Source: a virus
Direction: 5' to 3' (one strand)
Virus record (IMG/VR): IMGVR_UViG_3300005518_000002
Coordinates: 17,860-81,859 of that record
Length of the DNA stretch: 64,000 nt
Made by a program: the position numbers and the translations under genes
Part shown: piece by piece, positions 5,734 through 53,138 of the stretch
Layout: each line of letters opens with the position of its first letter
Position numbering within the stretch: the first letter of the stretch is position 1
Notes under the pieces: generated by a model
Told to the model about the DNA's origin: nothing
The model's database searches: none
What the model saw: only the letters and a program-made list of their open reading frames with translations

Positions 5734-6432
5734 TCACGTCAGGGTGGTCGGGTTGCAGGCTTCGGTGGGCGGTGCCGTGGTGGTGATGTTCCACAGCCAG
5801 TGCTCCCCGGCGCCCAGCGTCTCGGACGTCGGGAGCCAGTTGGTACCGGTACCCGGTCCGTTCAGCCAGCCCGTGACCGCGGTGGTACTGCCTGCCCTCG
5901 TCTCGGACATGACCTGGAGCGTGGTCCGGCCGTTCTCGATGTCGTATCCGCCGAGCTTGCTGGAGCCGACGTTGGGCCAGGCGTTGTAGATATAGCGCTG
6001 CGCACCCGAGGCATCACAGGCACCGGAACCCGCGACCCGCTGCCAGACTTCGAGGGAGTACCGGTTGGTCGGCTGGCCCTCCGCGAAGGCGAAACCGGAT
6101 CCGGTGACCCCCGCCGCGCCCACGGTGAGTTCACGGGCGCTGGTGATGTACGCCGTGCCCGTCGTGTTGATCTCACAGAAGTCGATCGTCAGCTGCATGC
6201 GCTTGAGGACGGGGTCGTCCTTCTGGTTCACGCAGACGCTGCCGTCGGCCGTCCTCTCGAAGAACTCCTCGCCGTCCTCGTACTGCGGCTCCATGGAGAC
6301 CTTCACGAAGCCCTTGGACACGATGACCATGGACCCGGAACCGGTCACCGGGTTGCCACAGGTGTCCAGCTTGACGATGCGGTAGTGCGTGCCCTTGATC
6401 GGGGTTGCACACGCGGAAACAGTTGCGACCAT
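5734..6432 (-). CDS. Virion structural protein, major tail-like
   Basis: A 232-aa protein beginning MVATVSACATPIKGTHYRI. The pattern (single beta domain, '..GFVKVSMEPQYEDGEEF..', '..LTIDFCEINTTGTAYITSAREL..') resembles actinophage major tail or tube proteins. A head decoration protein is an alternative, because it lies before the connector genes in transcription order. A structural role is likely; the exact one is not settled. Confidence 0.5.
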   Translation of the reverse strand: MVATVSACATPIKGTHYRIVKLDTCGNPVTGSGSMVIVSKGFVKVSMEPQYEDGEEFFERTADGSVCVNQKDDPVLKRMQLTIDFCEINTTGTAYITSARELTVGAAGVTGSGFAFAEGQPTNRYSLEVWQRVAGSGACDASGAQRYIYNAWPNVGSSKLGGYDIENGRTTLQVMSETRAGSTTAVTGWLNGPGTGTNWLPTSETLGAGEHWLWNITTTAPPTEACNPTTLT

Positions 6433-6442
6433 GATTCACCCC

Positions 6443-7330
6443 TTACGTGGGTACTCCGAGGTTGACGAGCGCCGCGATCAGGCAGCATTCGAAGCCGAGC
6501 ACGTACGTGCGCTCAGCCAGCATGTGGACGGTGTTCTCCGCCCGGTTGAACGACTCGGCCAGCGTCGTGACGCGCATGTCGCTGCGGTAGCCGAACACCG
6601 CGCCGGTCGCGTAGATCCAGCTGGTCTGGTCCGCGGCCGCCGTGCCGATGGGTGAGGATCCGTCGTACCCGGTACCGACCACGACCAGATTGCCCGCCGC
6701 GGTGTGCAGGACGCCGTTGTCCTCCTCCACCAGATCCCACGCGACGAAGGTGGGCAGCGCCTCGGGAGCCATGTGGATGACTCCCTGACCGTGGTAGCAG
6801 TCGGCCAGGGAAGCCTCCACAGCACCGAGGGCATGGGCGGCGTCCCCGGTGGCTGCTACGGATGCGGCGGACTGGAGCGTGATGTTCTGCGGGTCCACCA
6901 GCTCTGTGCTGGAGGCCAGGTGGGGCCAGACGGTGGTGCGTCCGCCGGACGTCCCCGTCCATACGGCGCGCTCCACCCACCAGCCCTCCACCCGGGCCAG
7001 CGCGTCGGACGCGAGAGCATTGGTCTCCGCCTCGGTCCGGCCGACGGGCGAACAGGTGTACTCCGCGAACACCGTGAACGGCGTGGCTCCGCGGAACAGC
7101 TGGTCGACGTTGTCAGCCTTGTTCTCCGGTGCGGGCGGAACAGCTCCGCCCGTACCCGTGACCGCGATGCACTCGTCGTAGGTGGTCGCACCTGCGTCGC
7201 AGCGCTCTTCCCAGGTGATCCCGTGCTGCCAGTGGGGATTGTCGATACCGGGCTTCTGCGCTGCGTCCCACAGGCCGTAAGGGAGCGGTGAGAAAGACGG
7301 GCCGCTGACGATCTGTCGTGCTCCGGCCAT
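6443..7330 (-). CDS. Virion structural protein, possible second capsid-type subunit
   Basis: A 295-aa protein immediately downstream of the capsid gene and one small gene. The C-terminal half (GYRSDMRVTTLAESFNRAEN, then a helical end) resembles the end of HK97-fold shell proteins, while the N-terminus is Cys- and Trp-rich. It could be a minor capsid, decoration or penton-related protein. I see no catalytic motif. Probably an abundant virion component. Confidence 0.5.
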   Translation of the reverse strand: MAGARQIVSGPSFSPLPYGLWDAAQKPGIDNPHWQHGITWEERCDAGATTYDECIAVTGTGGAVPPAPENKADNVDQLFRGATPFTVFAEYTCSPVGRTEAETNALASDALARVEGWWVERAVWTGTSGGRTTVWPHLASSTELVDPQNITLQSAASVAATGDAAHALGAVEASLADCYHGQGVIHMAPEALPTFVAWDLVEEDNGVLHTAAGNLVVVGTGYDGSSPIGTAAADQTSWIYATGAVFGYRSDMRVTTLAESFNRAENTVHMLAERTYVLGFECCLIAALVNLGVPT

Positions 7331-7343
7331 CGGTTACGCCTCC

Positions 7344-7625
7344 TCACACAATCGTGGTGTTGACCATGTAGCTGATGTAACCCGGACTCAGCGAACTCAT
7401 TGACCAGGCCCAGAGCGCCGCCCCGGCTGCGAGTGGGAATGAGACGGGGCCGCTGTCCCCGGTCTGCACCAGGCGGCACCCGTGCTCGTTGTCGTTCGCA
7501 GACCCGATCTTCACGGAGTACTCGGACCAGAAGATCGTCACCATGCGCGTCCCGAGCAGGGACGACGCGACGATCTGGACCGGCGTCGTCCCTTCGAGAT
7601 ATGCCTCTTCGGTGATCAGAGTCAC
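7344..7625 (-). CDS. Small virion-operon protein
   Basis: A 93-aa protein. I chose the GTG at 7625 because GGGAGGA lies four bases upstream; a longer in-frame start at 7697 would have no such site. It still overlaps nothing downstream and sits just inside the end of the capsid gene region (capsid stop at 7660). It begins MTLITEEAYLEGTTPVQIV and is strand-rich. Unknown function, possibly a capsid decoration protein. Confidence 0.55.
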   Translation of the reverse strand: MTLITEEAYLEGTTPVQIVASSLLGTRMVTIFWSEYSVKIGSANDNEHGCRLVQTGDSGPVSFPLAAGAALWAWSMSSLSPGYISYMVNTTIV

Positions 7626-7659
7626 GCTGTCCTCCCTGCGGATACGGATGAAGGGAGAA

Positions 7660-9468
7660 TCAGACGTGAGCACCGTTCGGCGTGGCAACCGCGCCACCGG
7701 CCTGGCCGGAGACGTTGAAGGCCACGGTGTACTTACGTGCGGCGTGGCCGACCAGAGCGATCAGGTGGCACTCCTCCGCCCACAGCGCGGTGTAGTCGTT
7801 CTCCGCGTTGAGGACCGAGTCCCTGATGACGCCCAGGTCGAGCTGGAGGCCGGTGCCGTGGAGGAACGTCCCCGCTGCGTACATGAGGAAGTTCACCGTG
7901 CCGGGCCACACGAGCTGGACCGTGCTGTTGCCGGGCTGGGAAGCGCCGCGCACCTGGTAGTCGTTGACCCACTGGACGCGGACGTTGCGCGCGGAGAAGA
8001 ACGAGTCGATCTCTGCGTCGCTGACAGCCTGCTGGTTGGAGACACCCTGCTTGAGGGCCAGGTCCGCCCGGATCACTTCCCGGATGTAGTACGGCATGAT
8101 CACCTCAAGCACCGCATTGGTGCTCATGGCGAACCGGGCCCGGTAGTCCGTCGCAGCCAGGGCCACGGAGTTGTAGATCCTCGGGGCAGGGCCGTCGGTG
8201 GCAACGGCACCGATGGTGTTCGCACCACCGGCCGCAGTGTCCATCAGGCTGATCAGCCGCGCATTGATCGCGTGGGCGTAGGCCGCGCGCATCAGCCGGA
8301 TGAAGTTCTGCGTCGACTCGGGGTACGCGTCGTCCGTCAGGTTGCCCGCGGTGAGGCTGAGGCCGTAGCACTCCAGCCGGACCTCGGAGAACGTGGGGCA
8401 GGGGACGCGCAGCGTCGGCTTGTTGACGGATCCGGTGACAGTGAGAATGTCGTCGGACTCGGTCCACAGCCACGGGTCGGTCGCGTTGCTCATCGGGAAG
8501 GCGAAGCCACCGAGACCGGAGGCCGCCGTAGCGCCGCCGCCCACGGACGCCTGGAAGAACACGTCGCCGATGGCCGGGGAGACCGGGAAGCGGATACCGC
8601 CACGGCTCACACCGACGGACGGAAGGTCGACCATTCCGTCTGCTTCGGCGATGTTGAAGAAGTTATACATGATCTCCGACGGCGCACACCATCCGCCACC
8701 GGCAACCAGCGCGTCCAGGTTGCTGGACTTCCCCTGGAGGATGCTCTTCCAGAGCTCTTCCACCGTGGCGGGGTTGGTCCGCTCGTCGATGGTGTGCTCG
8801 AAGGTGTTGCGCACCGAGGCGACCAGGTGACGCGCGGCACCCCTGCCGTCGCGGGTGATCGGGATGGCGCGGGCCTTCTGCTGGAAGGCACTGCCGAGGG
8901 CTTCGATGGTGGGCAGGGCCTGGCCGGTGGCCACGCCGGGAATGTCCACCGAGGCGGTGATGGCCGGTACGGCTCCGGGAACCTTGAGCGGCGGAGCCTG
9001 GTTACGGGTGGCGGACAGCGACGCCATCCGGCTCTTGACCTGCTCCATCTGCGGGCTGTTCTCCCCGAACAGCGCCATGGCGACACCCTGCGCGGTGGCC
9101 TGCGTCAGCTCCCCGAGGTTGATCTGTCCGCCGGGACCGGCGGCCGCAGCGGCGGTGGCAGTCTCGCCGCCTTCACCCGTTCCGTCGCCGTGCACCCGGC
9201 CGCGGAGATCCTGCATACGGCGCTCTGCCGCCAGGCGCTCCGTCTCGGCCTTCCGGCTGGCGCGGTCCTCACGCACCTGGAGCTCGGCCCGGATACGGTC
9301 GAGGCTTTCGGTGATGGTGGCGGAGTAGGTCAGGGCTTCGGCCGTGAACTCCCCTGCCTGCTCGATCCGGTCGAATTCAGCGACGGCCTGGTCCTGGAGT
9401 GCTGCCAGATCGGCATCACTGACCAGGGAGAGGTCGTCGGGTGCGTGGAAAAGCTCAGGCTCCGGCAC
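7660..9468 (-). CDS. Major capsid protein, HK97 fold, with N-terminal scaffold-like region
   Basis: A 602-aa protein. Residues 1 to about 95 are acidic and coiled-coil (DRIEQAGEF, RKAETERLAAERRMQDLRG), as expected for a fused scaffold (delta) domain that the protease would remove. The rest has HK97 hallmarks: a long spine-helix region (TVEELWKSILQGKSS), a P-domain and a C-terminal 'NVRVQWVNDYQ..' segment with a late Gly/Ala-rich end. It is the largest shell-like protein, lies next to the protease, and is preceded by a palindrome at 9530-9567. Confidence is high for a capsid role. Confidence 0.85.
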   Translation of the reverse strand: MPEPELFHAPDDLSLVSDADLAALQDQAVAEFDRIEQAGEFTAEALTYSATITESLDRIRAELQVREDRASRKAETERLAAERRMQDLRGRVHGDGTGEGGETATAAAAAGPGGQINLGELTQATAQGVAMALFGENSPQMEQVKSRMASLSATRNQAPPLKVPGAVPAITASVDIPGVATGQALPTIEALGSAFQQKARAIPITRDGRGAARHLVASVRNTFEHTIDERTNPATVEELWKSILQGKSSNLDALVAGGGWCAPSEIMYNFFNIAEADGMVDLPSVGVSRGGIRFPVSPAIGDVFFQASVGGGATAASGLGGFAFPMSNATDPWLWTESDDILTVTGSVNKPTLRVPCPTFSEVRLECYGLSLTAGNLTDDAYPESTQNFIRLMRAAYAHAINARLISLMDTAAGGANTIGAVATDGPAPRIYNSVALAATDYRARFAMSTNAVLEVIMPYYIREVIRADLALKQGVSNQQAVSDAEIDSFFSARNVRVQWVNDYQVRGASQPGNSTVQLVWPGTVNFLMYAAGTFLHGTGLQLDLGVIRDSVLNAENDYTALWAEECHLIALVGHAARKYTVAFNVSGQAGGAVATPNGAHV

Positions 9469-20691: not shown

Positions 20692-21741
20692 TCACGCAGA
20701 CGCCAGCCATTCGGGATGAGCCAGGGTCCAGGCAACAGTCTTGGCCATGGAGTCGTCCAGACTGATCGGCGCGCGCCAGCCGAGGTCAGCAATCTTGGAG
20801 CCGTCCAGTGCGTAGCGCAGATCATGGCCGGGGCGCGAGGAGTGGAAACTCTCCATCTTGATCTCCGGGGGCCGACGGGCCTGGAGACCGGCCAGACGCA
20901 TCCATTCGTAGATCATGCCTACCAGGTCGAGATTATTGACCTCCCTGTCCCCCACGATGTGGAACCGGGGCGGCCTGCGCGCGCCGCCCGCGTAGGGGAC
21001 CATGTCGACTTTCTCGTCCAGAACCTGGCGAGCGAGGTAGAGCCAGGCGTCCGCGAGGTTGCGCGCGTGGAGGTAGAAACGGGAGCCCGGGGTCCCGTCC
21101 GGCGCGCAGTGCACGATGACCGGCACACTACGCATGATCTTGCTCATGGTCATCGGCACGAACTTCTCGGGATCCTGCATCTCCCCGACGATGTTCATCG
21201 TATTCGTGATGACCACCGGCACACCGTAGGTGCGCCAGTAGCTGAAGCAGATCGCCTCCTGCGCAGCCTTGCTGGCGCTGTAGGGATTGGACGGTGCGAG
21301 CGTTTCCCACTCCTTGTGCCGGTGGTCGCCGTAGGCCGGACCGTAGACCTCGTCCGTGCTCATCTGGAGGAAAATCTTCGGCTTGTGCCGCCGGGCCAGC
21401 TCCAGCACGTTGAGCATCAGCGAGGTGTTGTTCAGGGTGAAGCCGACGGGATCTTCAATCGACCGGTCCACGTGGCTCTCCGAGGCGACGTTCATGAACA
21501 CCTCGCAGCCCTCCAGCGCAGCGTGGAGACTCATGGGCGCGGGGGCCTGCATGTCCCAGTGGACGATGGTCACGCGCCGGGCCCACTTGTCGTCACCGCA
21601 GGTGCTCGAAGCGATGCGCTCCGGCATGCCCTTGTGCTGGAACGAGACAGAGCAGACGATCTCCCAGTCCGTCTCCATGAGCAGGTGGCGCAGGACGTGC
21701 GAGCCGACGAAGCCACCGGCTCCGGTGAGGAACGCCTTCAT
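20692..21741 (-). CDS. NAD-dependent sugar epimerase/dehydratase (extended SDR)
   Basis: A 349-aa enzyme. I set the start at MKAFLTGAGGFVGSHV, with AGGAG seven bases upstream; an upstream in-frame extension overlaps the deacetylase gene and is not real. Motifs: TGAGGFVG nucleotide loop, MSTDEVYGP and YSASKAA catalytic Tyr/Lys. This is the pattern of dTDP-glucose 4,6-dehydratase-like enzymes acting on nucleotide sugars. With the neighbouring deacetylase it may make a sugar for DNA, virion or host surface modification. Confidence 0.85.
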   Translation of the reverse strand: MKAFLTGAGGFVGSHVLRHLLMETDWEIVCSVSFQHKGMPERIASSTCGDDKWARRVTIVHWDMQAPAPMSLHAALEGCEVFMNVASESHVDRSIEDPVGFTLNNTSLMLNVLELARRHKPKIFLQMSTDEVYGPAYGDHRHKEWETLAPSNPYSASKAAQEAICFSYWRTYGVPVVITNTMNIVGEMQDPEKFVPMTMSKIMRSVPVIVHCAPDGTPGSRFYLHARNLADAWLYLARQVLDEKVDMVPYAGGARRPPRFHIVGDREVNNLDLVGMIYEWMRLAGLQARRPPEIKMESFHSSRPGHDLRYALDGSKIADLGWRAPISLDDSMAKTVAWTLAHPEWLASA

Positions 21742-21757
21742 GATCTTGCTCCTGTGG

Positions 21758-22501
21758 TCAGGGGTGGACGATCCAGTTCGGGTTGCCGGACGCCACCGAC
21801 GGGAACAGCGACGTGCCGACCGAGTGATAGCCGACGGCGAAGCGCCCCTGGAGCGGAGCCCAGCAGCTGTAGGCCCGCGCGGACTGCCGGACAGCGATCT
21901 TGGTTTCTTCCGCGTACTGCGCCGGGATGACGTACTGATCGCAAGGGATCTCGCCGGACAGTGCCTGCGACTCCCGCACCAGCCAGCGCACGTCCGGCCA
22001 CGCGGCAGGATTCGCCTCACGGAGCTGCTTGAGCGCGAGCCCGTACATGGAATGGGTGGGGTCAACGTCCTGCCAGTGCATGGTGTACATGCCTGCCGCG
22101 GGGTCCAGATCGTGGAAGTACTGGAGGACTGCCTTGGCCTGGTCGATGGTGGGGGAGTCGTGACGCAGGGCCGTGTTGAGATGGATCTCCCCGGGCACGG
22201 CGCCGAGCAGCGCGGCGGAGTCCATGAACTCCGCATCCCGGCTGGCGACGATGTCGTCCGGGGTCAGGGTGGCGTATCCCTCCCGGGCCAGGTCGTGCGT
22301 TCCGCCCCACCAGGAGTTCGCCGTCAGGCCATTGATCGAGTCGATGGCTGTGGTGGTGCGGCCGGGCGCACCGAGGATGAACGAAACCCGGCGGCCGACA
22401 CGGGCGTGGTACCAGGCAACCTGTCCCATGGACAGGCAGTCGTCGTCCGCATGGGGCGAGAGGAAGTACACCCGGCGCCCGGTCGGATTGATGATCGTCA
22501 A
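21758..22501 (-). CDS. PIG-L/LmbE family deacetylase
   Basis: A 247-aa protein with the family zinc motif SPHADDD near residue 15 and a late H (AVGYHSVGTSLF). PIG-L enzymes remove acetyl groups from N-acetylglucosamine conjugates, as in mycothiol or GPI synthesis. It sits between an epimerase and a 70-aa gene in the same leftward operon as the hypermodification cassette, so the substrate may be an acetylated sugar or base adduct. That link is inference. Confidence 0.8.
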   Translation of the reverse strand: MTIINPTGRRVYFLSPHADDDCLSMGQVAWYHARVGRRVSFILGAPGRTTTAIDSINGLTANSWWGGTHDLAREGYATLTPDDIVASRDAEFMDSAALLGAVPGEIHLNTALRHDSPTIDQAKAVLQYFHDLDPAAGMYTMHWQDVDPTHSMYGLALKQLREANPAAWPDVRWLVRESQALSGEIPCDQYVIPAQYAEETKIAVRQSARAYSCWAPLQGRFAVGYHSVGTSLFPSVASGNPNWIVHP

Positions 22502-23398: not shown

Positions 23399-24292
23399 TC
23401 AGCGAGTGACGCCCTTGGTTGTCTCCCGGAACTCCTGCGCCCGCTTGATCTCTTCCCGCTCGCTCCCGCAGTTGACCATGGCCGTGCGCATGTAGCTGAC
23501 GACGCTGATGCGCTCCGCCCCGCAGTCCGGGCAGGCCGAGGTGCGCGTCACCCCGCAGGCGCAGACGATGGCCGTGTTGCCGTGCCACTGGTGCGCGTCC
23601 ATGAGGATCAGGTCGCCGTCCTGTAGATCCACGGCCACCCGGTACTCCGGGAAGACGAAGACTCCCCCGGTGTACTCCCCCCGGCGCAGCGTGAAGATCG
23701 TGCTGAAGCCCTTGTCCAGATCACCCTTGTCCGTGTGCACGCCGGTCGGGTACGTGTTGTTCACCGTGATCGTGGTAAACGGGGTACCCGGCACCACCCA
23801 GTCATCGTGCGTCCGGCCGATCTCCTCCATCTGCGCCTGCCAGCGGTCCGGCACGTGGATGCTCATCTGCTCGGAGACCTGACGGAGCAGCGGATGCAGC
23901 GCCTGCCACTCCGGGAGGTGGCGACCGGTCCACTGGGTGAGGCGGCAGAAGTTGAAGGCGTTGGTCGGGTCAGCCGAACCGATCATCGAACTGGCAAGGT
24001 TCTTGGCATAGGTGCGCTTCTGTTCTCCGACCTTGACCCTGCGGGTGGCACCGGCCAGGCCCCGGTTGTCCGTACGTACGCTGCGCAGCGAGTGCAGGAT
24101 CTCGTACTGCTCGGGAGTGACGGCTTCGCGCATGGCTCCGGGGAGGTACACGCACAGCGGCCGCCCGTCGGGCAGGAGAAGACGGGTGGGTCCGGTCATC
24201 AGCAGGCTGTACGCCCCGGACGTGATGACCTTGCCCTTCATCTCCTCCAGTGTCTGAGGGTCGATACGGCTGCGCAGCCGGGCACTGATCAC
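23399..24292 (-). CDS. TET/JBP-family 2-oxoglutarate/Fe(II) dioxygenase
   Basis: A 297-aa enzyme. The iron-binding HxD lies in YPTGVHTDKGD (His186, Asp188), the distal His in HQWHGNT (His237) and the 2-oxoglutarate-binding Arg in VVSYMRT (Arg269). The intervening GEYTGGVFVFPE and LQDGDLILMD match the Tet_JBP pattern rather than prolyl hydroxylases. A CxC...CxxC insert (residues 244-257) may bind zinc. Known members oxidise the methyl group of thymine (JBP) or 5-methylcytosine (TET) in DNA. Its start overlaps the stop of the kinase gene, so it belongs to the hypermodification cassette. Target base is inferred as thymine from the neighbours. Confidence 0.8.
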   Translation of the reverse strand: MISARLRSRIDPQTLEEMKGKVITSGAYSLLMTGPTRLLLPDGRPLCVYLPGAMREAVTPEQYEILHSLRSVRTDNRGLAGATRRVKVGEQKRTYAKNLASSMIGSADPTNAFNFCRLTQWTGRHLPEWQALHPLLRQVSEQMSIHVPDRWQAQMEEIGRTHDDWVVPGTPFTTITVNNTYPTGVHTDKGDLDKGFSTIFTLRRGEYTGGVFVFPEYRVAVDLQDGDLILMDAHQWHGNTAIVCACGVTRTSACPDCGAERISVVSYMRTAMVNCGSEREEIKRAQEFRETTKGVTR

Positions 24293-24873
24293 GAGCGCAC
24301 TCCGTCCGTGAGGAATCCGAGAGCGGGGATGTCCTGCACCCGTTCAGCCATGCAGCCGGGCTCCACCAGATGCGTGCTGGTCATGGAGTGGAAGTCGATG
24401 CCCCCGTCAGCCGCTGCCCACTCCGCCAGGTTGTACGCGCGGGTCTGGGCTCCCTTGCGCCAGCTGTAGTTCTGGGACGTGCCCCGCTGCGCGCAGCGAT
24501 GATCCAGGACATCGTCGTCCGCATACAGGTAGAGCAGGTGGACCCGCACTCCCGCAGCCGTCAGCCGGGACAGGAAGGGACGCGTGGCCAGCCGGGCTCC
24601 CTCCCCCAGGGCGAAGTCGACCGGGGTGCGCAGCAGGAAGTCCGAGGCACGGAAGGAGATGTCCATGGCCAGGCTGTCCGTGCCGGGATGCTGCTGACGG
24701 GGCACTCCGAGTTCGAGCCCGTGCAGGGCTCCGCTGTTCATGGAGCGCAGCAGCGTGTGCGGCACGGGCGGACCCTTGACGACTTCCATGTCCCAGGGCA
24801 GGCGCAGGTAGCGCATCAGCGTGGACTTGCCGACGCCGGGTGCTCCGCAGATGTACAGCAGGTCTTTGATCAC
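24289..24873 (-). CDS. P-loop kinase, 5-hydroxymethyluracil DNA kinase-like
   Basis: A 194-aa enzyme. I chose the GTG at 24873 (GGAGGA five bases upstream). Walker A is GAPGVGKST (residues 10-18). Further motifs are LGVPRQQHPGTDSLAM (about 55-70) and LGEGARLATRPF (about 89-100), which match the pattern I know for 5hmU DNA kinases of phages with thymine hypermodification. Those enzymes phosphorylate 5-hydroxymethyluracil in DNA to activate it. The PLP gene stop overlaps this start by GTGA. Other nucleotide kinases are possible, but the neighbourhood supports the call. Confidence 0.75.
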   Translation of the reverse strand: MIKDLLYICGAPGVGKSTLMRYLRLPWDMEVVKGPPVPHTLLRSMNSGALHGLELGVPRQQHPGTDSLAMDISFRASDFLLRTPVDFALGEGARLATRPFLSRLTAAGVRVHLLYLYADDDVLDHRCAQRGTSQNYSWRKGAQTRAYNLAEWAAADGGIDFHSMTSTHLVEPGCMAERVQDIPALGFLTDGVRS

Positions 24874-25718
24874 AGTGGTCCTCCGACGATCCAGAAGCAG
24901 GTCGTGCCGTCCCGGCGCTTCCACCAGTCCGGCGCAAGCTGGTCCAGATGGTGGGCGACCTTTCCCTCATAGGTGGGGTGCAGGACGATGCCGTCCAGCG
25001 TGTGGGGCTGCCGGTCACCGTAGGCATAGACGCCTGTGCCGTGCAGGTCGATGTGCTCGTAATCATCCCAGACCAGACCCATGCGCAGCAGCCGCGCGCG
25101 CATCCACTCCCGCCGGTCCGGGCCTATGCCGATCAGCTTGACCTCCACGTCGCTGCGCTTGTGGGCGATCAGTCCGGTGAGGATGCCGGTCGCGGTGTTC
25201 GCCGACCCGAACGGGATCACCAGCGTGCGCACCTCCAGCGGCAGGTTGGCGACCTGTTCGGCCACGGGACCGTGGAACGCCATGAGCTCCACAGCACTGG
25301 CGTCCGGCGGGGTGGTGATGCCGTACTCCAGGAGATAGGCCGAGCCGTCCCTCCGCACGAGCTCCCGGGCTGCGCGCTGCAAGGCCGGGTTGTACCCCAC
25401 GCCGATGAAATCGAAGTCCGCTCCGGCCGCCTGAGCAATCTGCGGAGAGGGGTGGCGGAAGGCAGTCGACGGACGGGTGCCCCCGTAGATCACGAGGCAG
25501 TCCATGTCCAGCTCCCGCGCCGTGATGGAGACCATGGCCGCCTGCGGGCTGAGCACGCTGCACGCGGTGACCACCCGGGTGTAGCCGAGGGCGGACGCGC
25601 GGCGGAGCAGGTGCTGGCAGGCACGGAGCTTGGATCCGTTGATGCCGTGCTGTCCGGTGTAGAGATCTTCCCGCTTGAGCTGGAGTCCGCCGCGCAGCTG
25701 TACGGGGGTCAGATCCAC
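24870..25718 (-). CDS. Fold-type II PLP-dependent enzyme in the hypermodification cassette
   Basis: A 282-aa protein. I placed the start at GTG 25718, five bases after GGGAG and overlapping the previous stop by 10 nt; upstream extension would lie inside the aGPT-PPlase gene. KREDLYTG, INGSKLRA (Schiff-base Lys30) and the glycine loop FGSANTATG mark the family of ACC deaminase, D-cysteine desulfhydrase and threonine synthase. In Vi1- and M6-like phages a PLP enzyme finishes the thymine side chain by removing a carboxyl group. This fold type may do a related step or supply an amine donor. Reaction unknown. Confidence 0.7.
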   Translation of the reverse strand: MDLTPVQLRGGLQLKREDLYTGQHGINGSKLRACQHLLRRASALGYTRVVTACSVLSPQAAMVSITARELDMDCLVIYGGTRPSTAFRHPSPQIAQAAGADFDFIGVGYNPALQRAARELVRRDGSAYLLEYGITTPPDASAVELMAFHGPVAEQVANLPLEVRTLVIPFGSANTATGILTGLIAHKRSDVEVKLIGIGPDRREWMRARLLRMGLVWDDYEHIDLHGTGVYAYGDRQPHTLDGIVLHPTYEGKVAHHLDQLAPDWWKRRDGTTCFWIVGGPL

Positions 25719-26785
25719 CGGATCTCCCGGCGCCCGAAGCTGCCCTGCGCCACGGCGGACTCGAAGCCATTGGCGAAGCAGGGCCACTCCTCCGTCATGT
25801 TGATCACTTCTCCGTGTTCGAGGAACCAGTTCTGCTTGACCGGCACGCAGCCGGGGTCCAGCGGACTGTCCTCCAGGAGGAGCCGGGGCGGGAATGCGGT
25901 GCGCCGGGCCTCCCACAGCAGATCGAACCTCCGCCCGAACTTGATCTCTCCGTGGCGGATGCGGTCGTACAGCATGTCGTTGTACACACCGGGGTAGCGC
26001 CGGTTCGGCTTGTGCCAGCTCTTGAAGGTGCACAGCGCACTCTCCAGGCTGAGGTAGCCCAGCGCACGGTCGTCCCAGCCGAGCGTGCGCACCAGGTCCC
26101 GTGCGTCCCCCAGAAGCCGGGCACCCTCGGATTCGAGCTTCCTGATCATTCCCGGGGAGTAGCGCCCGCCGTAGCTGCCGAGCTGGTGGTCACTGATCCA
26201 GCCCTCGTGTCCGGACACCAGGCACAGGCCGTTGCGGTGGGAGCGGGATCCGGAGATGTCCTGGAGCATCAGCGTGTCCGCGTCGGGCACCGGCAGGCCG
26301 AGGATGCGCAGGTACTCCAGGTAGCTCCAGGCCGAGAGCCGTCCCATGGTCGGAATGGCGAGAGCACGCTCCCAGCAGCTGTCCCAGTCACCCTTGCGCC
26401 AGTAGCGGGCCTGTCCCGCTCCGGTCAGCGCACGGTACCCGGCGCAGGCCCGGGGGAACTTGGCCTTGTGGTAGCGGCGGTCGGTGTCCCACTGGAGCGC
26501 GCCCCAGTGCTCGTTGAGAAAGGCGACGGCCTTGTCCGAGTCCTCCGGCCGGGGCGCAGCCCCGAACAGCAGCAGCGTCGTGACGGGGTTCTGCGTGTTG
26601 CCGTTGAGGAAAGCGAGCCAGGCCCGCTGCTCCTCGTCGAGGTCCAGCTCCCGGGCGACGTGCGGCAGCACGTAATGCACACCGCCGGGGAAGGACTGGT
26701 ACTTCAGGGACCAGGCGTAGAAGCGCAGGAAGATCTCCCTCCGGTACTCGGGCTTGCGGAAGTCAGCGCCGTGCTCAGGATTCAT
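25709..26785 (-). CDS. Alpha-glutamyl/putrescinyl thymine pyrophosphorylase-like protein (aGPT-PPlase)
   Basis: A 358-aa protein with GGAGG six bases before the ATG. Motifs such as RFYAWSLKYQSFPGGVHYVL, NGNTQNPVTTLLL, RRYHKAKFP, SAWSYLEYLRI and HKPNRRYPGVYNDMLYDRI match the DNA-glycosylase-related aGPT-PPlase families described in complex base-modification operons. These replace the pyrophosphate of activated 5hmU in DNA with an amine or amino acid. It is coupled to the ParB-like gene (11-nt overlap) and the PLP gene. Recognition is from memory, with moderate to good confidence. Confidence 0.7.
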   Translation of the reverse strand: MNPEHGADFRKPEYRREIFLRFYAWSLKYQSFPGGVHYVLPHVARELDLDEEQRAWLAFLNGNTQNPVTTLLLFGAAPRPEDSDKAVAFLNEHWGALQWDTDRRYHKAKFPRACAGYRALTGAGQARYWRKGDWDSCWERALAIPTMGRLSAWSYLEYLRILGLPVPDADTLMLQDISGSRSHRNGLCLVSGHEGWISDHQLGSYGGRYSPGMIRKLESEGARLLGDARDLVRTLGWDDRALGYLSLESALCTFKSWHKPNRRYPGVYNDMLYDRIRHGEIKFGRRFDLLWEARRTAFPPRLLLEDSPLDPGCVPVKQNWFLEHGEVINMTEEWPCFANGFESAVAQGSFGRREIRWI

Positions 26786-27545
26786 CCGGACCCTCCGGGG
26801 AGTCCGCGTACTCCAGCGCGTTGCCCTCGTCGCTCAGTCCGTGCTGGTCGATCACCCGCGCGGTCACCCGGGCCGCGCACAGCAGGATCTCTCCCTGGCT
26901 GCGGGCGCCCAGATTCTCCCGGATCTTCATGATCAGCTGTCCGAGCTCGTCGGCCTGCGCACTGGGCAGGGCGAGGACGATGTCCCGCACCCCCCGGCTG
27001 GCCATCGTCGTGGAGTCGTGTCCGCCGTGGGACGCAATACGCCGCTCCACGTCCTCCGGGGTGTCGTTCCAGGACGTATCGGGGGTGGCATAGGGGGTCA
27101 CCTCGGCCTCCTCTCCTGAGGCTGCCTCCAGGGCTTCCAGGAGGTCCGCCACTTCGTCATCCGCGAAGCCGGTCCCCTCGTAGTCGCCCTCCAGCGCGGT
27201 GAGCAGCGCGGCGAGAGCTCCGGAGTCGTAGTCCCCGTCGTCGGCCGCCTTGTTGTCCACCAGGTTGATCTTTTTGGCGGTCCTGTCGTCGCACGTGATC
27301 ACCTCGCAGCGGGCTTCGGTCTCGCCCTCCTCGGCCAGCGCGATCATCGTGTGGTTGCCCGCCAGCACGACCAGCCCGGCGTCCGGCGTCTCGCGGACGA
27401 CCAGGGACCGGTACTGACCGTGCTCCCGCAGGCTTCCGCGGATCACGTCCACCCGGCCACGCTTGGCGTTGCCCGGGAAGGGGGTCAGCTCCCCCAGGGG
27501 GATGACATCGGTGCGGACATAGGTGCTCTTGGCTGTCTGGGTCAT
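26775..27545 (-). CDS. ParB/sulfiredoxin-like protein at the head of the hypermodification cassette
   Basis: About 256 aa from the ATG at 27545 (AGGAAAG upstream). The N-terminal ParB-like fold shows PLGELTPFPGNAKRG, LVVLAGNHTMIALAE and KINLVDNKAADDGDYD. A helical C-terminal half follows, with an acidic end. ParB-like domains often accompany phage DNA modification enzymes and may bind or nick DNA or use nucleotide (CTP/ATP). Here it is the first gene of the coupled cassette. Confidence 0.75.
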   Translation of the reverse strand: MTQTAKSTYVRTDVIPLGELTPFPGNAKRGRVDVIRGSLREHGQYRSLVVRETPDAGLVVLAGNHTMIALAEEGETEARCEVITCDDRTAKKINLVDNKAADDGDYDSGALAALLTALEGDYEGTGFADDEVADLLEALEAASGEEAEVTPYATPDTSWNDTPEDVERRIASHGGHDSTTMASRGVRDIVLALPSAQADELGQLIMKIRENLGARSQGEILLCAARVTARVIDQHGLSDEGNALEYADSPEGPDES

Positions 27546-35218: not shown

Positions 35219-35331
35219 AGGCCGGACAGGACACGACCCCGTGCCCCTGCGCGTGCAGTCCGGGAACCCGGTGCAGCTGCACCGGCTGTGTCTGCGAGGA
35301 GCACCACCCGGAGGAAACCGATGAGCGCTGA
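35215..35331 (+). CDS. 38-aa Cys-rich peptide
   Basis: Starts at a GTG overlapping the previous stop (GTGA) and ends 11 nt inside the helicase gene. Seven cysteines in a CPCAC...CSCTGCVC pattern suggest a metal-binding knuckle. The overlaps on both sides favour a real, coupled gene. Function unknown. Confidence 0.5.
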   Translation: MKAGQDTTPCPCACSPGTRCSCTGCVCEEHHPEETDER

Positions 35332-37978
35332 CATGATCCGCCTGCGCGACTACCAGAACGAGTGCGTGGACAAGGTGATTGCCGCCTGGCTCACCAACAC
35401 CCAGCGTCCGGCCGTCGTGCTCCCGACCGGCTGTCATCGGGCGGGGCAACGCGTTCTCATGTACGACGGCTCCGTCTGCACTGTCGAGAACGTCCGGGCT
35501 GGTGATCGCCTCATGGGTCCTGACAGCACCCCTCGTGAGGTTCTGTCCCTGGCCCGGGGTACCGGACCCATGATGGAGGTCCGGCCGGTCAAAGGACGCC
35601 CCTGGGTGGTCAATGATGAGCACGTGCTGACTCTGGTCCGCACCGCAGCCGGGGGTAAATACCCCTCGGAGCAGGGGGGCGTGATCACCGACGTAGCGCT
35701 GCCGGACTGGTGGCAGTGGGCCCGGTACCGGAAGCACACCCATAAGATCTTCAGGGTGCCGGTCGACTTTCCCGCTCAGCCTGTGCCGGACCTCGATCCG
35801 TATTTTCTCGGAGTAGTGCTCGGAGATGGGTCACTGTCCGTCCGGCACCGGCTGTCGATCGCCACGGCGGACCCGGAGATCACGGAACTGTGCGAGCAGG
35901 TGGCACAGGACCACGGCCGACGGGGCGGGGGCAATCCCCTGGTGACAAAAATCCGTGCACTGGGACTGTGCCCGATCGCATGCGCAGACCGGTTCGTTCC
36001 GGAGATCTACAAACTGGGCAGCCGGAAGGTCCGGCTGGAGACCTTGGCCGGTCTGATCGACTCGGACGGAGCTCTGTCCGGGGACGGATACGACTTCGGA
36101 TCCAAGTCAGAACGGTTGGCCGATGACGTGGCGTTCATGGCCCGGAGTCTCGGGCTGGCTGCGTACGTAACCAAGCGTCCGAGCGGCCATTACCGGGTGT
36201 CGGTCTCCGGGGACTGCACAGTCATCCCGGTGCGGATCAGGCGTAAGAAAGCACCAGCACGGACGGCAGTCAAGGATGTGCTGCGTACGGGATTCGATGT
36301 GATCCCCACGGGCACTGTGGAGCCGTATTACGGGTTCCACCTGGACGGCGACCACCGATACCTCCTGGACGATTTCACGGTGACGCACAACTCGGGCAAG
36401 ACTGTGATCTTCTCCCATCTGGCGGACGACTGGCTCAACCACCGCGGCCGGGGCACCCGCGTCGTGATCCTGGTGCACCGTGATGAGCTGGCCGACCAGG
36501 CGATCCGCAAGCTGCACGACGTCGCACCCCACATGAGCGTCGGCAAGGTCAAAGCGGCGGACAACGACGTCCATGCCGACGTCATGGTCTGCTCCGTGCA
36601 GACCCTGGCCCGCCAGTCCCGTCTGGACCGGCTGATCAGCAGCCAGTACGCGTTCTCTCCCCCGGGAGAACCGGCTCCGCTGGAGCGGCCGATCGGACTG
36701 GTCATCGTGGACGAATGCCATCATGCCGCCGCACCCAGCTACCGCCGGATCATGGAACAGCTGGGCTGCTTCACCCTGGAGCCGGAAAATGCCTACGGCC
36801 ACTGCGCCGGTACCCGGGCGGTAGGCTTCACCGCCACCCTGGCCCGCGGTGACGGGGTGGGGCTGGGCTCCGTGTGGGACAGCGTGGCCTACACCCGCAC
36901 CACCCTGGAGATGATCCGGGACGGCTTCCTGACGGACGTCAAGGGGCGTAACGTCGATCTTGATTTCGACCTGTCGGGGGTCAAGACCTCCGCGGGCGAC
37001 TACCAGGCCAAGTCGCTCGGAGAGGCGATCGTCTCGGCCGACGGTCCGCGCAAGATCGCTGCCGCTGTCCTGGAGTACGCGGAGGACCGGCGCCCGATCG
37101 TCTTCACGCCCGACGTGGCCAGCGCCTATCTCACCGCGGCGGAGCTGGACAAGCTCGGCATCCTGTGTGACGTGGTGGAGGGCAACACCAGCCGCGAGGA
37201 GCGCCAGCTGATCTACAAGAAGTACCGCACCGGGGAATTGCAGGCCGTGGTCAACTGCATGGTGCTGACCGAGGGAGCCGACTTCCCCTGGGCGGACTGC
37301 GCGGTGATCGCCCGTCCGACCAGGAGCGCCCCGCTCTACATTCAGATGGTCGGCCGTGTGCTGCGTCCCTGGCCCGGCAAGTCCGACGCGCTGGTGCTCA
37401 ACGTGATCGGCCAGGGCGGCACCATCTCCACCCTGATCGACCTGGACCCGGGCCTGGTCACCACGCCCCGGCCGGGGGAGTCACTGGCCGACGCCTACAC
37501 CCGGCAGGAGGAACGGGCGGACTCGAAGGTCCCCGCCGGATCACTCGCCTTCGAGCTCAAGTACCGCGACATGGACCTGTTCGCCGCCTCCAGCCAGGCG
37601 TGGCTGCGCACCCCCGGCGGGGTGATGTTCCTCCCCCTCGGACAGGGAGAGGTCTTCCTGTGGCCGGACGCAGAGGGCACCTGGGCGGTGTGCTTCGCCC
37701 CCACTCAGGGTCGCAAGTGGGTCCGCCTGCACCGGGAGCTTCCCCTCGGCCTGGCCATGGCATGGGCGGAAACCGAGGCGGGCGCGGCGGTCTTCGCCCT
37801 GTCGGCCAAGGACAAGCGCTGGCGCAAGGAGAAGGCCGACGCCAAGCAGATCGGCAAGGCCCGCTCGATGGGTATCGACGTCGGGCCCGACCCCCGCAAG
37901 GGGTCAGTGTCAGACGCCATCAGTACAGTGCTCGCGAGCTGGAAGTTCGATGAGCGCGTGAAGAAGGTCCAGGTATGA
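35321..37978 (+). CDS. SF2 DNA helicase interrupted by an intein
   Basis: 885 codons from the ATG at 35321 (GGAGG six bases upstream). Residues 1-37 end in VVLPTG, and residues 358 onward resume SGKTVIF, so the Walker A loop PTGSGKT is split by a 320-aa intein (residues 38-357). After splicing the helicase is about 565 aa. It has a DECH box (IVDECHHAAAP), the motif III-like GFTATL, and C-terminal EGADFPW and QMVGRVLRP of the UvsW/RecG-like DEAD superfamily. It likely opens or restarts replication forks with the downstream nuclease and SSB. It cannot hydrolyse ATP until spliced. Confidence 0.9.
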   Translation: MSADMIRLRDYQNECVDKVIAAWLTNTQRPAVVLPTGCHRAGQRVLMYDGSVCTVENVRAGDRLMGPDSTPREVLSLARGTGPMMEVRPVKGRPWVVNDEHVLTLVRTAAGGKYPSEQGGVITDVALPDWWQWARYRKHTHKIFRVPVDFPAQPVPDLDPYFLGVVLGDGSLSVRHRLSIATADPEITELCEQVAQDHGRRGGGNPLVTKIRALGLCPIACADRFVPEIYKLGSRKVRLETLAGLIDSDGALSGDGYDFGSKSERLADDVAFMARSLGLAAYVTKRPSGHYRVSVSGDCTVIPVRIRRKKAPARTAVKDVLRTGFDVIPTGTVEPYYGFHLDGDHRYLLDDFTVTHNSGKTVIFSHLADDWLNHRGRGTRVVILVHRDELADQAIRKLHDVAPHMSVGKVKAADNDVHADVMVCSVQTLARQSRLDRLISSQYAFSPPGEPAPLERPIGLVIVDECHHAAAPSYRRIMEQLGCFTLEPENAYGHCAGTRAVGFTATLARGDGVGLGSVWDSVAYTRTTLEMIRDGFLTDVKGRNVDLDFDLSGVKTSAGDYQAKSLGEAIVSADGPRKIAAAVLEYAEDRRPIVFTPDVASAYLTAAELDKLGILCDVVEGNTSREERQLIYKKYRTGELQAVVNCMVLTEGADFPWADCAVIARPTRSAPLYIQMVGRVLRPWPGKSDALVLNVIGQGGTISTLIDLDPGLVTTPRPGESLADAYTRQEERADSKVPAGSLAFELKYRDMDLFAASSQAWLRTPGGVMFLPLGQGEVFLWPDAEGTWAVCFAPTQGRKWVRLHRELPLGLAMAWAETEAGAAVFALSAKDKRWRKEKADAKQIGKARSMGIDVGPDPRKGSVSDAISTVLASWKFDERVKKVQV
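35432..36391 (+). mobile_element. Intein with LAGLIDADG homing endonuclease
   Basis: Begins with Cys (TGT 35432) and ends HN before extein Ser358 (TCG 36392). N-terminal splicing block CHRAGQRVLMYDGSVCTVEN, block B-like VNDEHVLTL, and C-terminal YGFHLDGDHRYLL...FTVTHN are present. Two endonuclease motifs, FLGVVLGDGSL and LAGLIDSDGAL, appear complete, so it may still home into intein-free alleles. Confidence 0.9.
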
Positions 37979-45288: not shown

Positions 45289-45540
45289 ATGACCACCACC
45301 AAGCGACCCAGGGGACGACCCCGTCCCATCGAGACGATCGAGCGGGACGAGAAGATCCTCAAGCTGCTCCAGCAGAGCGGATCGTTCACCCGCAATCAGA
45401 TCGCCGAAGCCCTGGGCCTGGACACCACCATCACCTACCTCTCCCTGGACCGGCTGCGCCGCCAGGGACGCGTCCGCAAGTGCGCGGGCACCGGCTCGAA
45501 CACCCTGTGGACGAGCGAGGCGAATGCCCCGTGCCCCTGA
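45289..45540 (+). CDS. AT-hook plus winged-helix DNA-binding protein
   Basis: An 83-aa protein. Residues 5-13 are an AT-hook-like KRPRGRPRP. Residues about 20-70 form a winged helix (DEKILKLLQQSGSFTRNQIA, TYLSLDRLRRQGRVRK). The AT-hook would suit the AT-rich intergenic motifs of this element. Likely transcription regulator. The GC-rich host background makes AT-rich sites stand out. Confidence 0.75.
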   Translation: MTTTKRPRGRPRPIETIERDEKILKLLQQSGSFTRNQIAEALGLDTTITYLSLDRLRRQGRVRKCAGTGSNTLWTSEANAPCP

Positions 45541-45746
45541 TCACCGGACCTGCGGACGAGCAGGAAGAGGCGCTGGGACCGCGGGAGATCTGCGAGCTGG
45601 GAGAGATCTGCGTAAAGATGGCCCGGCAGCTGCGAGAAACGAGCGAGGCAGCGGCAGCCATCTTCAGATCGCTCCCCGCCGCGGGAGCCCTGCTGACGTC
45701 CCCGGACGCCATGCGCTGGACCCCCGGGGAAGGAGTTGCGCTGTGA
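45531..45746 (+). CDS. Small helical protein
   Basis: A 71-aa protein from GTG 45531, overlapping the previous gene by 10 nt. The sequence CELGEICVKMARQLRETSEA gives an amphipathic helix. Unknown function. Coupled to the glycosyltransferase by GTGA. Confidence 0.5.
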   Translation: MPLITGPADEQEEALGPREICELGEICVKMARQLRETSEAAAAIFRSLPAAGALLTSPDAMRWTPGEGVAL

Positions 45747-46372
45747 GCGGTGACCGGCTCACCGTGGCTGTGTGCATCCCGACCATCGACGGCCGGGAGC
45801 GCATGCTGGCCAACGCCATGCGCACGGTAAGGATCCAGCGCCGCAAGCCCGACCAGATCCTGATCGAGCGGGACCGGGAAAGGACGGGCGCAGCAGCCAC
45901 ACGCAACCGGCTGCTGGCCCGGGTGGAGACCGACGTGATCGCCTGGCTCGACGATGATGACCTTCTGGAGCCGAACCACCTGATCGCCAACCTCCGGGTG
46001 CTCAAGGAGCGGCCGGAGGTCACACTCGTCTACCCCCGGCCGCGCATGGTCGGCGGGAAGGACCCCACGGCAGTGACTTACCAGGGACGGTTCCCGACCC
46101 CTCCCTGGGGCCTGCGCTGGTGCCCGGAGTTCGACAAGCACCTGAGGATGCGCGGCTCCTTCATCCCCATGACGCACCTCGTGCGCACGCAGGCGGTGCG
46201 CGACGCCGGAGGATTCCCGCCCGGTGAAGTCCTGCCGGACGGCCGGTACCGGGGTGAGGACGAGGCGTACCTGATCAGGCTTCTCGATCACGGCGCGGTG
46301 TTCGAGCACCTGGACGCGAAGACCTGGAAGTGGGTCGTGCACACCCGGCAAACCGCCGGACGGGGTGTATAA
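45743..46372 (+). CDS. Family 2-like glycosyltransferase
   Basis: A 209-aa protein from GTG 45743 (AAGGAG seven bases upstream). VAVCIPTIDGRERML is the nucleotide-binding start, GAAATRNRLLARV the helix before the metal site, and WLDDDDLLEPNH the DxD. The C-terminal YRGEDEAYLIRLL supplies the ED catalytic base region. Without a transmembrane helix, it acts in the cytoplasm. Acceptor could be modified DNA or a virion or host glycan. Confidence 0.8.
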   Translation: MSGDRLTVAVCIPTIDGRERMLANAMRTVRIQRRKPDQILIERDRERTGAAATRNRLLARVETDVIAWLDDDDLLEPNHLIANLRVLKERPEVTLVYPRPRMVGGKDPTAVTYQGRFPTPPWGLRWCPEFDKHLRMRGSFIPMTHLVRTQAVRDAGGFPPGEVLPDGRYRGEDEAYLIRLLDHGAVFEHLDAKTWKWVVHTRQTAGRGV

Positions 46373-51862: not shown

Positions 51863-52545
51863 GCAGAGACCCGATGCTGGTGATCGTCCCCACCCGGGGA
51901 CGGCCGGAGAACATCGTCCGGCTGGAGGCCGCACTCACCGAGACCGGCACGATCGAGGCCGACTTCCTGTACGTGGTCGATCATGACGATCCGGCGCTGG
52001 ACGACTATCTCTCGCTCGGCCTGCGCCGGATCACGGTCATGCAGCGCCGGGCGCGTCTCGGCCGGACCCTGAACCATGTCTCCCAGCTCTACCGGGAGGC
52101 GTACGACGTGATCGGTTTCATGGGGGACGACCACTGCCCGCGGACCCCGGAATGGGACAAGCGGATCATGGACTCACTTCTGGAGGGCGCACCGCGGGTC
52201 GTCTACGGCAATGACCTCCTCCAGGGGGCGAACCTGCCGACGGCCGTCTTCATGCACAGCAGGATCATCAAGGAGCTCGGCTACATGGTTCCGGCGACCA
52301 TGGTCCACCTGTACCTGGACAACTTCTGGAAGGAGCTGGGCGCCGGACTGGACGGCCTGGTCTACCGGCCGGACGTGGTCATCGAGCACATCCACCCGGC
52401 TGCGGGCAAGGCCCCGATGGACGACGGGTACCGTGAGGCGAACTCGTCGGAGCAGGACCGGGCGGACCGGGAAGCCTGGCTGGCGTACCAGCAGAACTCT
52501 CTGCCCTACGCGGTCAAGAGGATCCGGGAGGCGTACGACAAGTGA
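51859..52545 (+). CDS. GT-A type glycosyltransferase
   Basis: A 228-aa protein from GTG 51859, overlapping the previous stop. LVIVPTRGRPENIVRLEAAL is the nucleotide-sugar start, FMGDDHCPRTPEWD the metal-binding region, and GADLDGLVYRPDVVIEH-like C-terminus carries a late His. Cytoplasmic. First of two tandem transferases before an epimerase. Confidence 0.75.
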   Translation: MSRDPMLVIVPTRGRPENIVRLEAALTETGTIEADFLYVVDHDDPALDDYLSLGLRRITVMQRRARLGRTLNHVSQLYREAYDVIGFMGDDHCPRTPEWDKRIMDSLLEGAPRVVYGNDLLQGANLPTAVFMHSRIIKELGYMVPATMVHLYLDNFWKELGAGLDGLVYRPDVVIEHIHPAAGKAPMDDGYREANSSEQDRADREAWLAYQQNSLPYAVKRIREAYDK

Positions 52546-53138
52546 CCTTGAAATCAGGCGTAACAGCCGTCGTGTCTGCACACACTCCCCGTGTGCAGAC
52601 ACGCTTGCATTCCGCACTGGACAGTGTGCTGATGCAGACCCGTCCGGTGGACGCAATCAGCGTCTCCGTCGATCATCACCACGAAGGTGCCGCTGCCACG
52701 AAGAACCGGGCGCTGGCGGCCGTGGGCACCGAGTGGTCGGCCGTGCTGGATTCGGACGATCTCTGGTTCCCCGAGCACGTCGCACTCCTGCTCATGCATG
52801 CCGAGCAGACCGGAGCCGACATGGTCTACCCGTGGTTCGAGGTGGAGAACGGGTGGGATCCGTTCCCGATGTTCGAGGGCCAGCCGTTCGACCCGAACGC
52901 GCTCAACGAGCAGAACTACATCCCGACCACGGTGCTCGTCAGGACAGAGCTGTTCCGGAGCACCGGGGGCTTCCAGCCCCTGGGACCGGAGGAGAATCCC
53001 TGCGACGACTGGGGGGCCTGGCACGCGCTGCGGAACGCGGGAGCGAAGATCGAGCACCTGAACCGGCGGACCTGGAAATGGGTCTGGCACGATACGGACG
53101 GGGACCGCAACACCTCGGGGAGGGGGAACGCGTGGTGA
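52542..53138 (+). CDS. GT-A type glycosyltransferase
   Basis: A 198-aa protein coupled to the previous one by GTGA. GVTAVVSAHTPRVQTRLHSA, GAAATKNRALAAV, AVLDSDDLWFPEH (DxD) and NPCDDWGAWHALR match the transferase at 45743 in order and spacing, so the two are probably paralogues. It has no membrane helix. Confidence 0.75.
   Translation: MTLKSGVTAVVSAHTPRVQTRLHSALDSVLMQTRPVDAISVSVDHHHEGAAATKNRALAAVGTEWSAVLDSDDLWFPEHVALLLMHAEQTGADMVYPWFEVENGWDPFPMFEGQPFDPNALNEQNYIPTTVLVRTELFRSTGGFQPLGPEENPCDDWGAWHALRNAGAKIEHLNRRTWKWVWHDTDGDRNTSGRGNAW

Follow-up and report, generated by a model that had tools for sequence, protein, structure and literature searches.

Background

Gordonia phage CaiB (cluster DR) was annotated in 2022 with a ParB-TET-ADDT-kinase cassette in genes 1-5 (PMC9302106), and in 2025 a five-gene set of Rhodococcus phage Tonitrus was named a thymine hypermodification system (PMC11955845). 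In the kinetoplastids, JBP1 and JBP2 hydroxylate thymine in DNA to 5-hydroxymethyluracil (5hmU), which is subsequently decorated to give base J (PMC10276184). We describe herein a five-gene cassette at positions 23399-27545, on the minus strand, of a 64,000-nucleotide (nt) stretch of viral DNA (the window), which corresponds to bases 17,860-81,859 of the 81,859-base IMG/VR virus record IMGVR_UViG_3300005518_000002. The cassette probably specifies a post-replicative pathway of thymidine hypermodification. Its genes, in order of transcription, are as follows (PLP, pyridoxal phosphate).

26775..27545, minus strand: ParB/Srx-fold protein, 256 residues, first cassette gene (PHROG ParB-like, 4e-42; AlphaFold fold match)
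25709..26785, minus strand: amino acid:DNA transferase (ADDT; aGPT-PPlase clade 2), 358 residues (PF18724, E 3e-14)
24870..25718, minus strand: fold-type II PLP enzyme, ACC-deaminase-like, 282 residues (PALP PF00291, 1e-10)
24289..24873, minus strand: P-loop kinase, 194 residues (Ploopntkinase3 PF18751, 8e-26; Walker A)
23399..24292, minus strand: TET/JBP 2-oxoglutarate/Fe(II) dioxygenase, 297 residues (Tet_JBP PF12851, 5e-17)

Inspection of the open reading frames of the window bore out an earlier note, made from the letters alone, that five leftward genes overlap here by 4-11 nt: successive overlaps are 11 nt (ParB/ADDT), 10 nt (ADDT/PLP), 4 nt (PLP/kinase) and 4 nt (kinase/TET), the last two both reading GTGA. 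Four of the proteins exceed the curated Pfam cut-offs (PF18724, PF00291, PF18751 and PF12851). The same overlapping operon is met again in numerous IMG/VR contigs, with protein identities of roughly 45-71%, and the cassette is therefore not a product of chance.

CaiB likewise has ParB, Tet_JBP, ADDT and a PF18751 kinase in one overlapping block, which directly precedes the terminase; it differs in that its ADDT belongs to another clade, its TET is of another type (~23% identical), and its fifth gene is an oxidoreductase, where the window has a PLP enzyme. Tonitrus, compared by its published description, has ParB, a tet-like JBP, aGPT-PPlase2 and a 5hmU DNA kinase, but its fifth gene is hypothetical and no PLP enzyme is named (PMC11955845). 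In the window, too, the ParB, Tet_JBP, ADDT and kinase genes are contiguous and overlapping, the PLP gene sitting between ADDT and kinase. Genes 1-4 of Mycobacterium Coopervirus (Zemanar) comprise ParB, a Tet_JBP protein (annotated as queuine tRNA-ribosyltransferase), an ADDT 51% identical to that of the window and a PF18751 kinase; the TET is of another type (22%), and a PLP enzyme is absent from the stretch. Montesquieu, a Glutamicibacter phage (OV696619), shares the order ADDT-PLP-kinase (ADDT 48% and PLP 38% identical), but its 5hmU presumably arises through a synthase-type hydroxymethylase with HMUDK_hel; it has no TET match, and no ParB is annotated alongside. Pseudomonas phage M6, whose 5-(2-aminoethyl)deoxyuridine pathway Lee et al. 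reportedly described in 2018 and 2022, has an ADDT, a PALP enzyme and a phrog_800 kinase. It differs in its synthase-type hydroxymethylase (gp58), PF18748 kinase, HMUDK_hel (gp55) and radical SAM protein (gp53), and no TET is annotated in the M6 stretch compared. Two marks of the M6/ViI type are thus missing from our record: a synthase-type hydroxymethylase, in whose place a TET stands, and HMUDK_hel. Base J formation shares with the cassette the hydroxylation of thymine in DNA by a TET/JBP enzyme, but is eukaryotic and adds glucose, not an amino acid.

The earlier note had regarded the cassette as its best candidate for an undescribed system. That can no longer be maintained, since TET, pyrophosphorylase/ADDT, kinase and ParB were already annotated together in CaiB (PMC9302106) and Tonitrus (PMC11955845). 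What appears to be new is the version with a PLP enzyme and the interchange of TET and synthase-type hydroxymethylase described below. In the annotated phage collection, none of the matches examined unites TET, ADDT and PLP, and no prior account of the interchange was found in the literature searched, which did not extend to Iyer 2013, Lee 2018, Lee 2022 and Burke 2021, where one may exist.

Results

TET and synthase-type hydroxymethylase were not found together

Viral contigs were chosen by their ADDT alone, with two alignments for the two ADDT clades, and 50 whole records of each clade were searched for Tet_JBP and for thymidylate synthase. A TET was present in 91 of the 100 records and a synthase-type hydroxymethylase in 6; no record had both, and 3 had neither in full. 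In the clade of the window's ADDT the figures were 42 TET, 5 synthase and 0 both, the remaining three being a record with a partial synthase at its edge (L154) and two 4.2-kb fragments (L089 and L118). In the CaiB clade they were 49, 1 and 0. Were the records independent, carriers numbering 91 and 6 would show zero overlap with a probability of ~7e-8, a value that is merely nominal because the records are related. This kinship is partly answered by an ADDT tree (a quick tree, with SH-aLRT support only), in which ADDTs with a synthase context sit at two or more distinct positions amid those with a TET context, and TETs of two types swap several times. An Agtrevirus row, with a very long branch and a provisional "synthase" label, was left out of these conclusions. 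Among 50 records selected by TET, no synthase was found, and Montesquieu, which keeps the ADDT-PLP-kinase trio in the order seen in the window, has a hydroxymethylase of the synthase type but no match to TET. A nucleotide-level hydroxymethylase elsewhere on the record of the window was considered and dropped: PF00303 is absent from all 81,859 bases, the 17.9 kb beyond the window among them. TET and synthase-type hydroxymethylase thus appear interchangeable in ADDT-bearing phages, and this exclusion supports the suggestion of the earlier note that the oxygenase supplies 5hmU in lieu of a nucleotide-level hydroxymethylase.

The accompanying genes differ as well. ParB is usual in TET loci and was found in none of the synthase-type loci, while HMUDK_hel is present in most synthase loci (the exceptions being short or edge-cut) and was seen in none of the TET loci. 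This locus-by-locus gene content suggests that ParB accompanies TET and HMUDK_hel accompanies the synthase.

The TET/JBP dioxygenase and its ParB-fold partner

The window TET scores 62 bits against the Tet_JBP model (curated cut-off 34.9). Its iron ligands, H186-x-D188 and H237, and the 2-oxoglutarate arginine, R261, are invariant in an alignment of 24 sequences. The AlphaFold model (pLDDT 91.5) best matches, among PDB entries, NgTET1 with DNA containing 5-methylcytosine (5mC) (4lt5, E 1e-12), CcTet and TET2. We infer that the protein oxidises the 5-methyl group of a pyrimidine in DNA.

The first protein of the cassette matches Pfam ParB_N at merely 0.18, but the PHROG "ParB-like partition protein" at 4e-42, and its AlphaFold model resembles ParB, Noc and PadC, with matches to ParB and Noc N-domains in 6sdk, 7bm8 and 7ng0; the ParB-like assignment of the earlier note is borne out by both profile and predicted fold. 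A GNHT motif stands where we would expect the canonical GERR box, which puts CTP binding in question. We propose that this protein is a DNA-loading or targeting partner of TET. In six contigs (L111, L112, L115, L117, L123 and L124), two tandem ParB-like genes precede TET.

Thymine as the probable target

Synthase-type enzymes can yield hydroxymethyl-dUMP (hmdUMP) or hydroxymethyl-dCMP (hmdCMP). In the T4 dCMP hydroxymethylase, Asp179 is the determinant of cytosine (PMC6400193). The Montesquieu enzyme, four contig relatives (L128, L145, L153 and L138) and M6 gp58 all carry Asn at the base-reading site, whereas the CMP hydroxymethylase MilA carries Asp at the aligned position. The invariant Asn therefore points to synthases of the uracil type beside ADDT, and a TET that replaces them would be expected to yield 5hmU as well. 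C5-cytosine methyltransferase (PF00145) has no match at E<=1 on the record, and exceeds the cut-off in 3 of 50 and 1 of 50 related records in the two sets; because of this absence and rarity, a phage-made 5mC substrate is unlikely. Most likely, then, TET would oxidise thymine within DNA to 5hmU, which the kinase, ADDT and PLP enzyme would take further. The thymine target named in the earlier note is supported by both lines, and as far as sequence can tell, the reading of the cassette as one for thymine hypermodification is well supported.

ADDT, PLP enzyme and kinase

The window ADDT (53.7 bits against PF18724, cut-off 26.2) is 51% identical to Mycobacterium Coopervirus gp3, 48% to the Montesquieu protein and 28% to proteins of Ackermannviridae. 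With its relatives it shares 43-63% identity, numerous invariant polar residues, and the motifs NTQNP, DTDRR, GRLS, SHRNG, ESALCT and NRRY. Profile matches of the PLP enzyme are to ACC deaminase (1f2d) and D-cysteine desulfhydrase, both of fold type II, and its Lys30, in GSKLR, is invariant. Homologues about 31-33% identical to it occur in phages of Vibrio and Aeromonas as well as in many enterobacterial ones, and it matches phrog_3650 at 4e-68 versus just 6e-8 for phrog_7093, the family of the M6 PLP enzyme. It is predicted to decarboxylate an amino acid bound to DNA.

The kinase has the Walker A motif GAPGVGKST and shares PHROG cluster phrog_800 with M6 gp54 (4e-13 for the window protein, 2e-39 for gp54); gp54 itself belongs to PF18748, HMUDK_HMUD1 (8e-18). 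The family names given in the earlier note stood for the ParB-like protein, ADDT/aGPT-PPlase, the fold-type II PLP enzyme and TET/JBP, but the kinase falls in the sister family PF18751 and not in HMUDK_HMUD1. The model searches that it had proposed gave a similar outcome, with matches for Tet_JBP and aGPT-PPlase/ADDT and none for the 5hmU kinase model, PF18748. A function like that of a 5hmU DNA kinase is plausible, though membership in the verified family fails. Sequence searches of the PDB with the TET, ADDT and kinase profiles returned nothing informative on function.

The label of phrog_800, "terminase small subunit", misnames these kinase members; in phrog_800 and 362 Mycobacterium phage records, the labels "terminase small subunit" and "adenylate kinase" cover M6 gp54 and the PF18751 cassette kinases. 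Small phosphatases (LMWPc and DSPc) lie within some TET-ADDT-kinase cassettes (L040:5177-5587, L045:5941-6390 and L048:5383-5898), and possibly act on the phosphorylated base.

Variants of the cassette

Viral contigs picked by TET provided 62 loci, 44-100% identical, in most of which ADDT-type and kinase genes adjoin TET. Among them, PLP occurs only with ADDT of the window type and a FAD oxidoreductase only with ADDT of the CaiB type, and other loci have either radical SAM proteins or TAGT, a glycosyltransferase. The FAD partner was found again in the set picked by CaiB-type ADDT, and the complete five-gene set in 45 of 74 ADDT-picked loci (near-duplicates counted). The tailoring slot is thus occupied by PLP, FAD oxidoreductase or radical SAM, classes that Lee et al. 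(2022) are said to have assigned to the tailoring of amino-acid-derived thymidines.

Reduced cassettes occur in ChrisnMich (L010:1-2371; ParB-TET-kinase only) and Vincenzo (L004:1-3152; a ParB-methylase fusion, PLP and kinase, with neither ADDT nor TET in the left end). TET stands beside TAGT, usually with ParB, in L046, L054, L157, L160 and L163 and at L009:1707-2441; C5-cytosine methyltransferase is absent from the L046 and L054 records, and in Nonlabens phage P12024L an N6/N4 methylase takes its place. Such loci could make a base-J-like glucosylated 5hmU in phages. The "queuine tRNA-ribosyltransferase" of the Mycobacterium phages Zemanar (gp2) and Suigeneris (gp2) (L003:785-1759 and L009:813-1691; phrog_6059) has Tet_JBP as its sole Pfam match, and the label is probably an annotation error that hides TETs across cluster B phages.

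Among genome contigs, relatives were found in Streptomyces africanus (71%; the FAD version, on the same backbone), in Actinomadura rayongensis and in Haloechinothrix alba, which makes a streptomycete or related actinobacterium the probable host. Two of these are bacterial contigs of 250 kb, with TET/ParB/radical SAM in A. rayongensis (L158:3048-4130 and 6107-8942) and TET/ParB/TAGT in H. alba (L157); these systems are possible prophages or chromosomal loci.

Surroundings of the cassette

On its 3' side the cassette is followed, in order, by genes for a helix-turn-helix protein, a PIG-L deacetylase, an epimerase, a lysin-like protein and the large terminase. Genes for PIG-L, two epimerases and two GT2 glycosyltransferases (20692-22501, 45524-46372, 52542-53138 and 53608-54519) possibly serve a second, sugar-based modification or a surface function. 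At 35288-37978, an apparent intein interrupts the Walker A motif of a helicase-like open reading frame (...LPTGCHRAG...HNSGKT...). The dinucleotide composition of the window was uninformative on base modification.

Discussion

From families, conserved residues and gene order we infer the catalytic steps, their sequence, the amino acid, the product and the role of ParB. TET/JBP, aided by the ParB-fold protein, would convert thymine in phage DNA to 5hmU by hydroxylation of its methyl group, the P-loop kinase would phosphorylate the hydroxymethyl group in DNA, ADDT would swap the (pyro)phosphate for a free amino acid, and the PLP enzyme would decarboxylate the attached amino acid to an amine. The product may guard virion DNA against host nucleases. 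By analogy, its likeliest form is a ViI-like 5-(aminoalkoxymethyl)uracil, ahead of the M6 type, since ADDT and PLP resemble their counterparts in Ackermannviridae (the ViI family) more closely than those in M6; relatives of the two occur in Salmonella, Klebsiella, Vibrio and related phages, one checked record of which, SKML-39, is of Ackermannviridae. We further consider it somewhat probable that two sources of 5hmU interchange in these phages, one pre-replicative (synthase and HMUDK_hel) and one post-replicative (TET and ParB, thymine being oxidised in finished DNA), with the ParB-fold protein setting site or processivity; hypermodification could then be site-selective, and free of the nucleotide pool and polymerase.

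Several points weigh against this pathway. The record is a metagenomic contig, possibly incomplete, and every absence noted above holds for this record alone. HMUDK_hel (PF18723) is absent from it, although it accompanies nearly all synthase cassettes, and the Pfam scan placed the kinase in PF18751 with no match to PF18748. To our knowledge, enzyme assays have been reported neither for this cassette nor for near relatives, and a literature search found no base analysis of a phage with such a cassette. Other points touch on TET itself. The closest solved TETs in the structure search are 5mC oxidases, and Asp191, at H+5, is invariant in the window's TET type whatever genes adjoin, while TETs of the Zemanar type, which serve the same ADDT family, carry Asn there; we take H+5 to be the place where Asp234 of NgTET1 touches the 4-amino group of 5mC.

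The structural matches and Asp191 would suit a cytosine route, in which TET oxidises 5mC to 5-hydroxymethylcytosine and the kinase, ADDT and PLP enzyme build an amino-modified cytosine; characterised phage TETs reportedly act on 5mC (Burke et al., 2021). Such a route is nonetheless unlikely. The enzymes that stand in for TET are of the uracil type, and every ADDT pathway known to us from biochemistry acts on 5hmU. The C5-cytosine route was dropped on the absence of PF00145 from the record and its rarity in 100 related records.

It is very unlikely that TET works instead with the adjoining PIG-L deacetylase and epimerase (20692-22501) in a glycosylation route, the ADDT trio being a separate system adjacent by accident. 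These two genes do lie directly downstream of the cassette, and TET is found with TAGT in Suigeneris and some contigs, with PIG-L too in Suigeneris. However, phmmer found PIG-L only in contigs of the same phage (L011 and L012), whereas TET-ADDT-kinase is kept across distant contigs; the epimerase tracks the phage backbone whatever the ADDT type, the record's GT2-type glycosyltransferases lie well away from the cassette, and ADDTs chosen blind to TET are still accompanied by TET. A sugar route through PIG-L and epimerase was dropped for the lack of conservation of PIG-L and the link of the epimerase to the backbone. Least credible is that the enzymes use free nucleotides or another substrate, or that the cassette has decayed and makes no modified base, as the lack of a base analysis and the retention of only ParB-TET-kinase or PLP-kinase in some mycobacteriophages might suggest, since the frames are intact, the catalytic residues conserved and the overlaps tight, and the likeness of the modelled TET to DNA-bound TET structures, together with its ParB-fold partner, suggests a DNA substrate.

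If thymidine hypermodification proceeds as proposed, aminated thymidines would arise without 5-hydroxymethyl-dUTP in the nucleotide pool, through the action of TET on thymine in DNA, an activity not known to be established beyond JBP and, as a side activity, some TETs. The interchange of TET and synthase would then serve as a genomic rule for predicting 5hmU-based chemistry, in numerous uncultured phages as well as in cultured phages of Gordonia, Rhodococcus and Mycobacterium. These loci would also be a source of candidate thymine-specific TETs, ParB partners and DNA-tailoring enzymes for use as tools.

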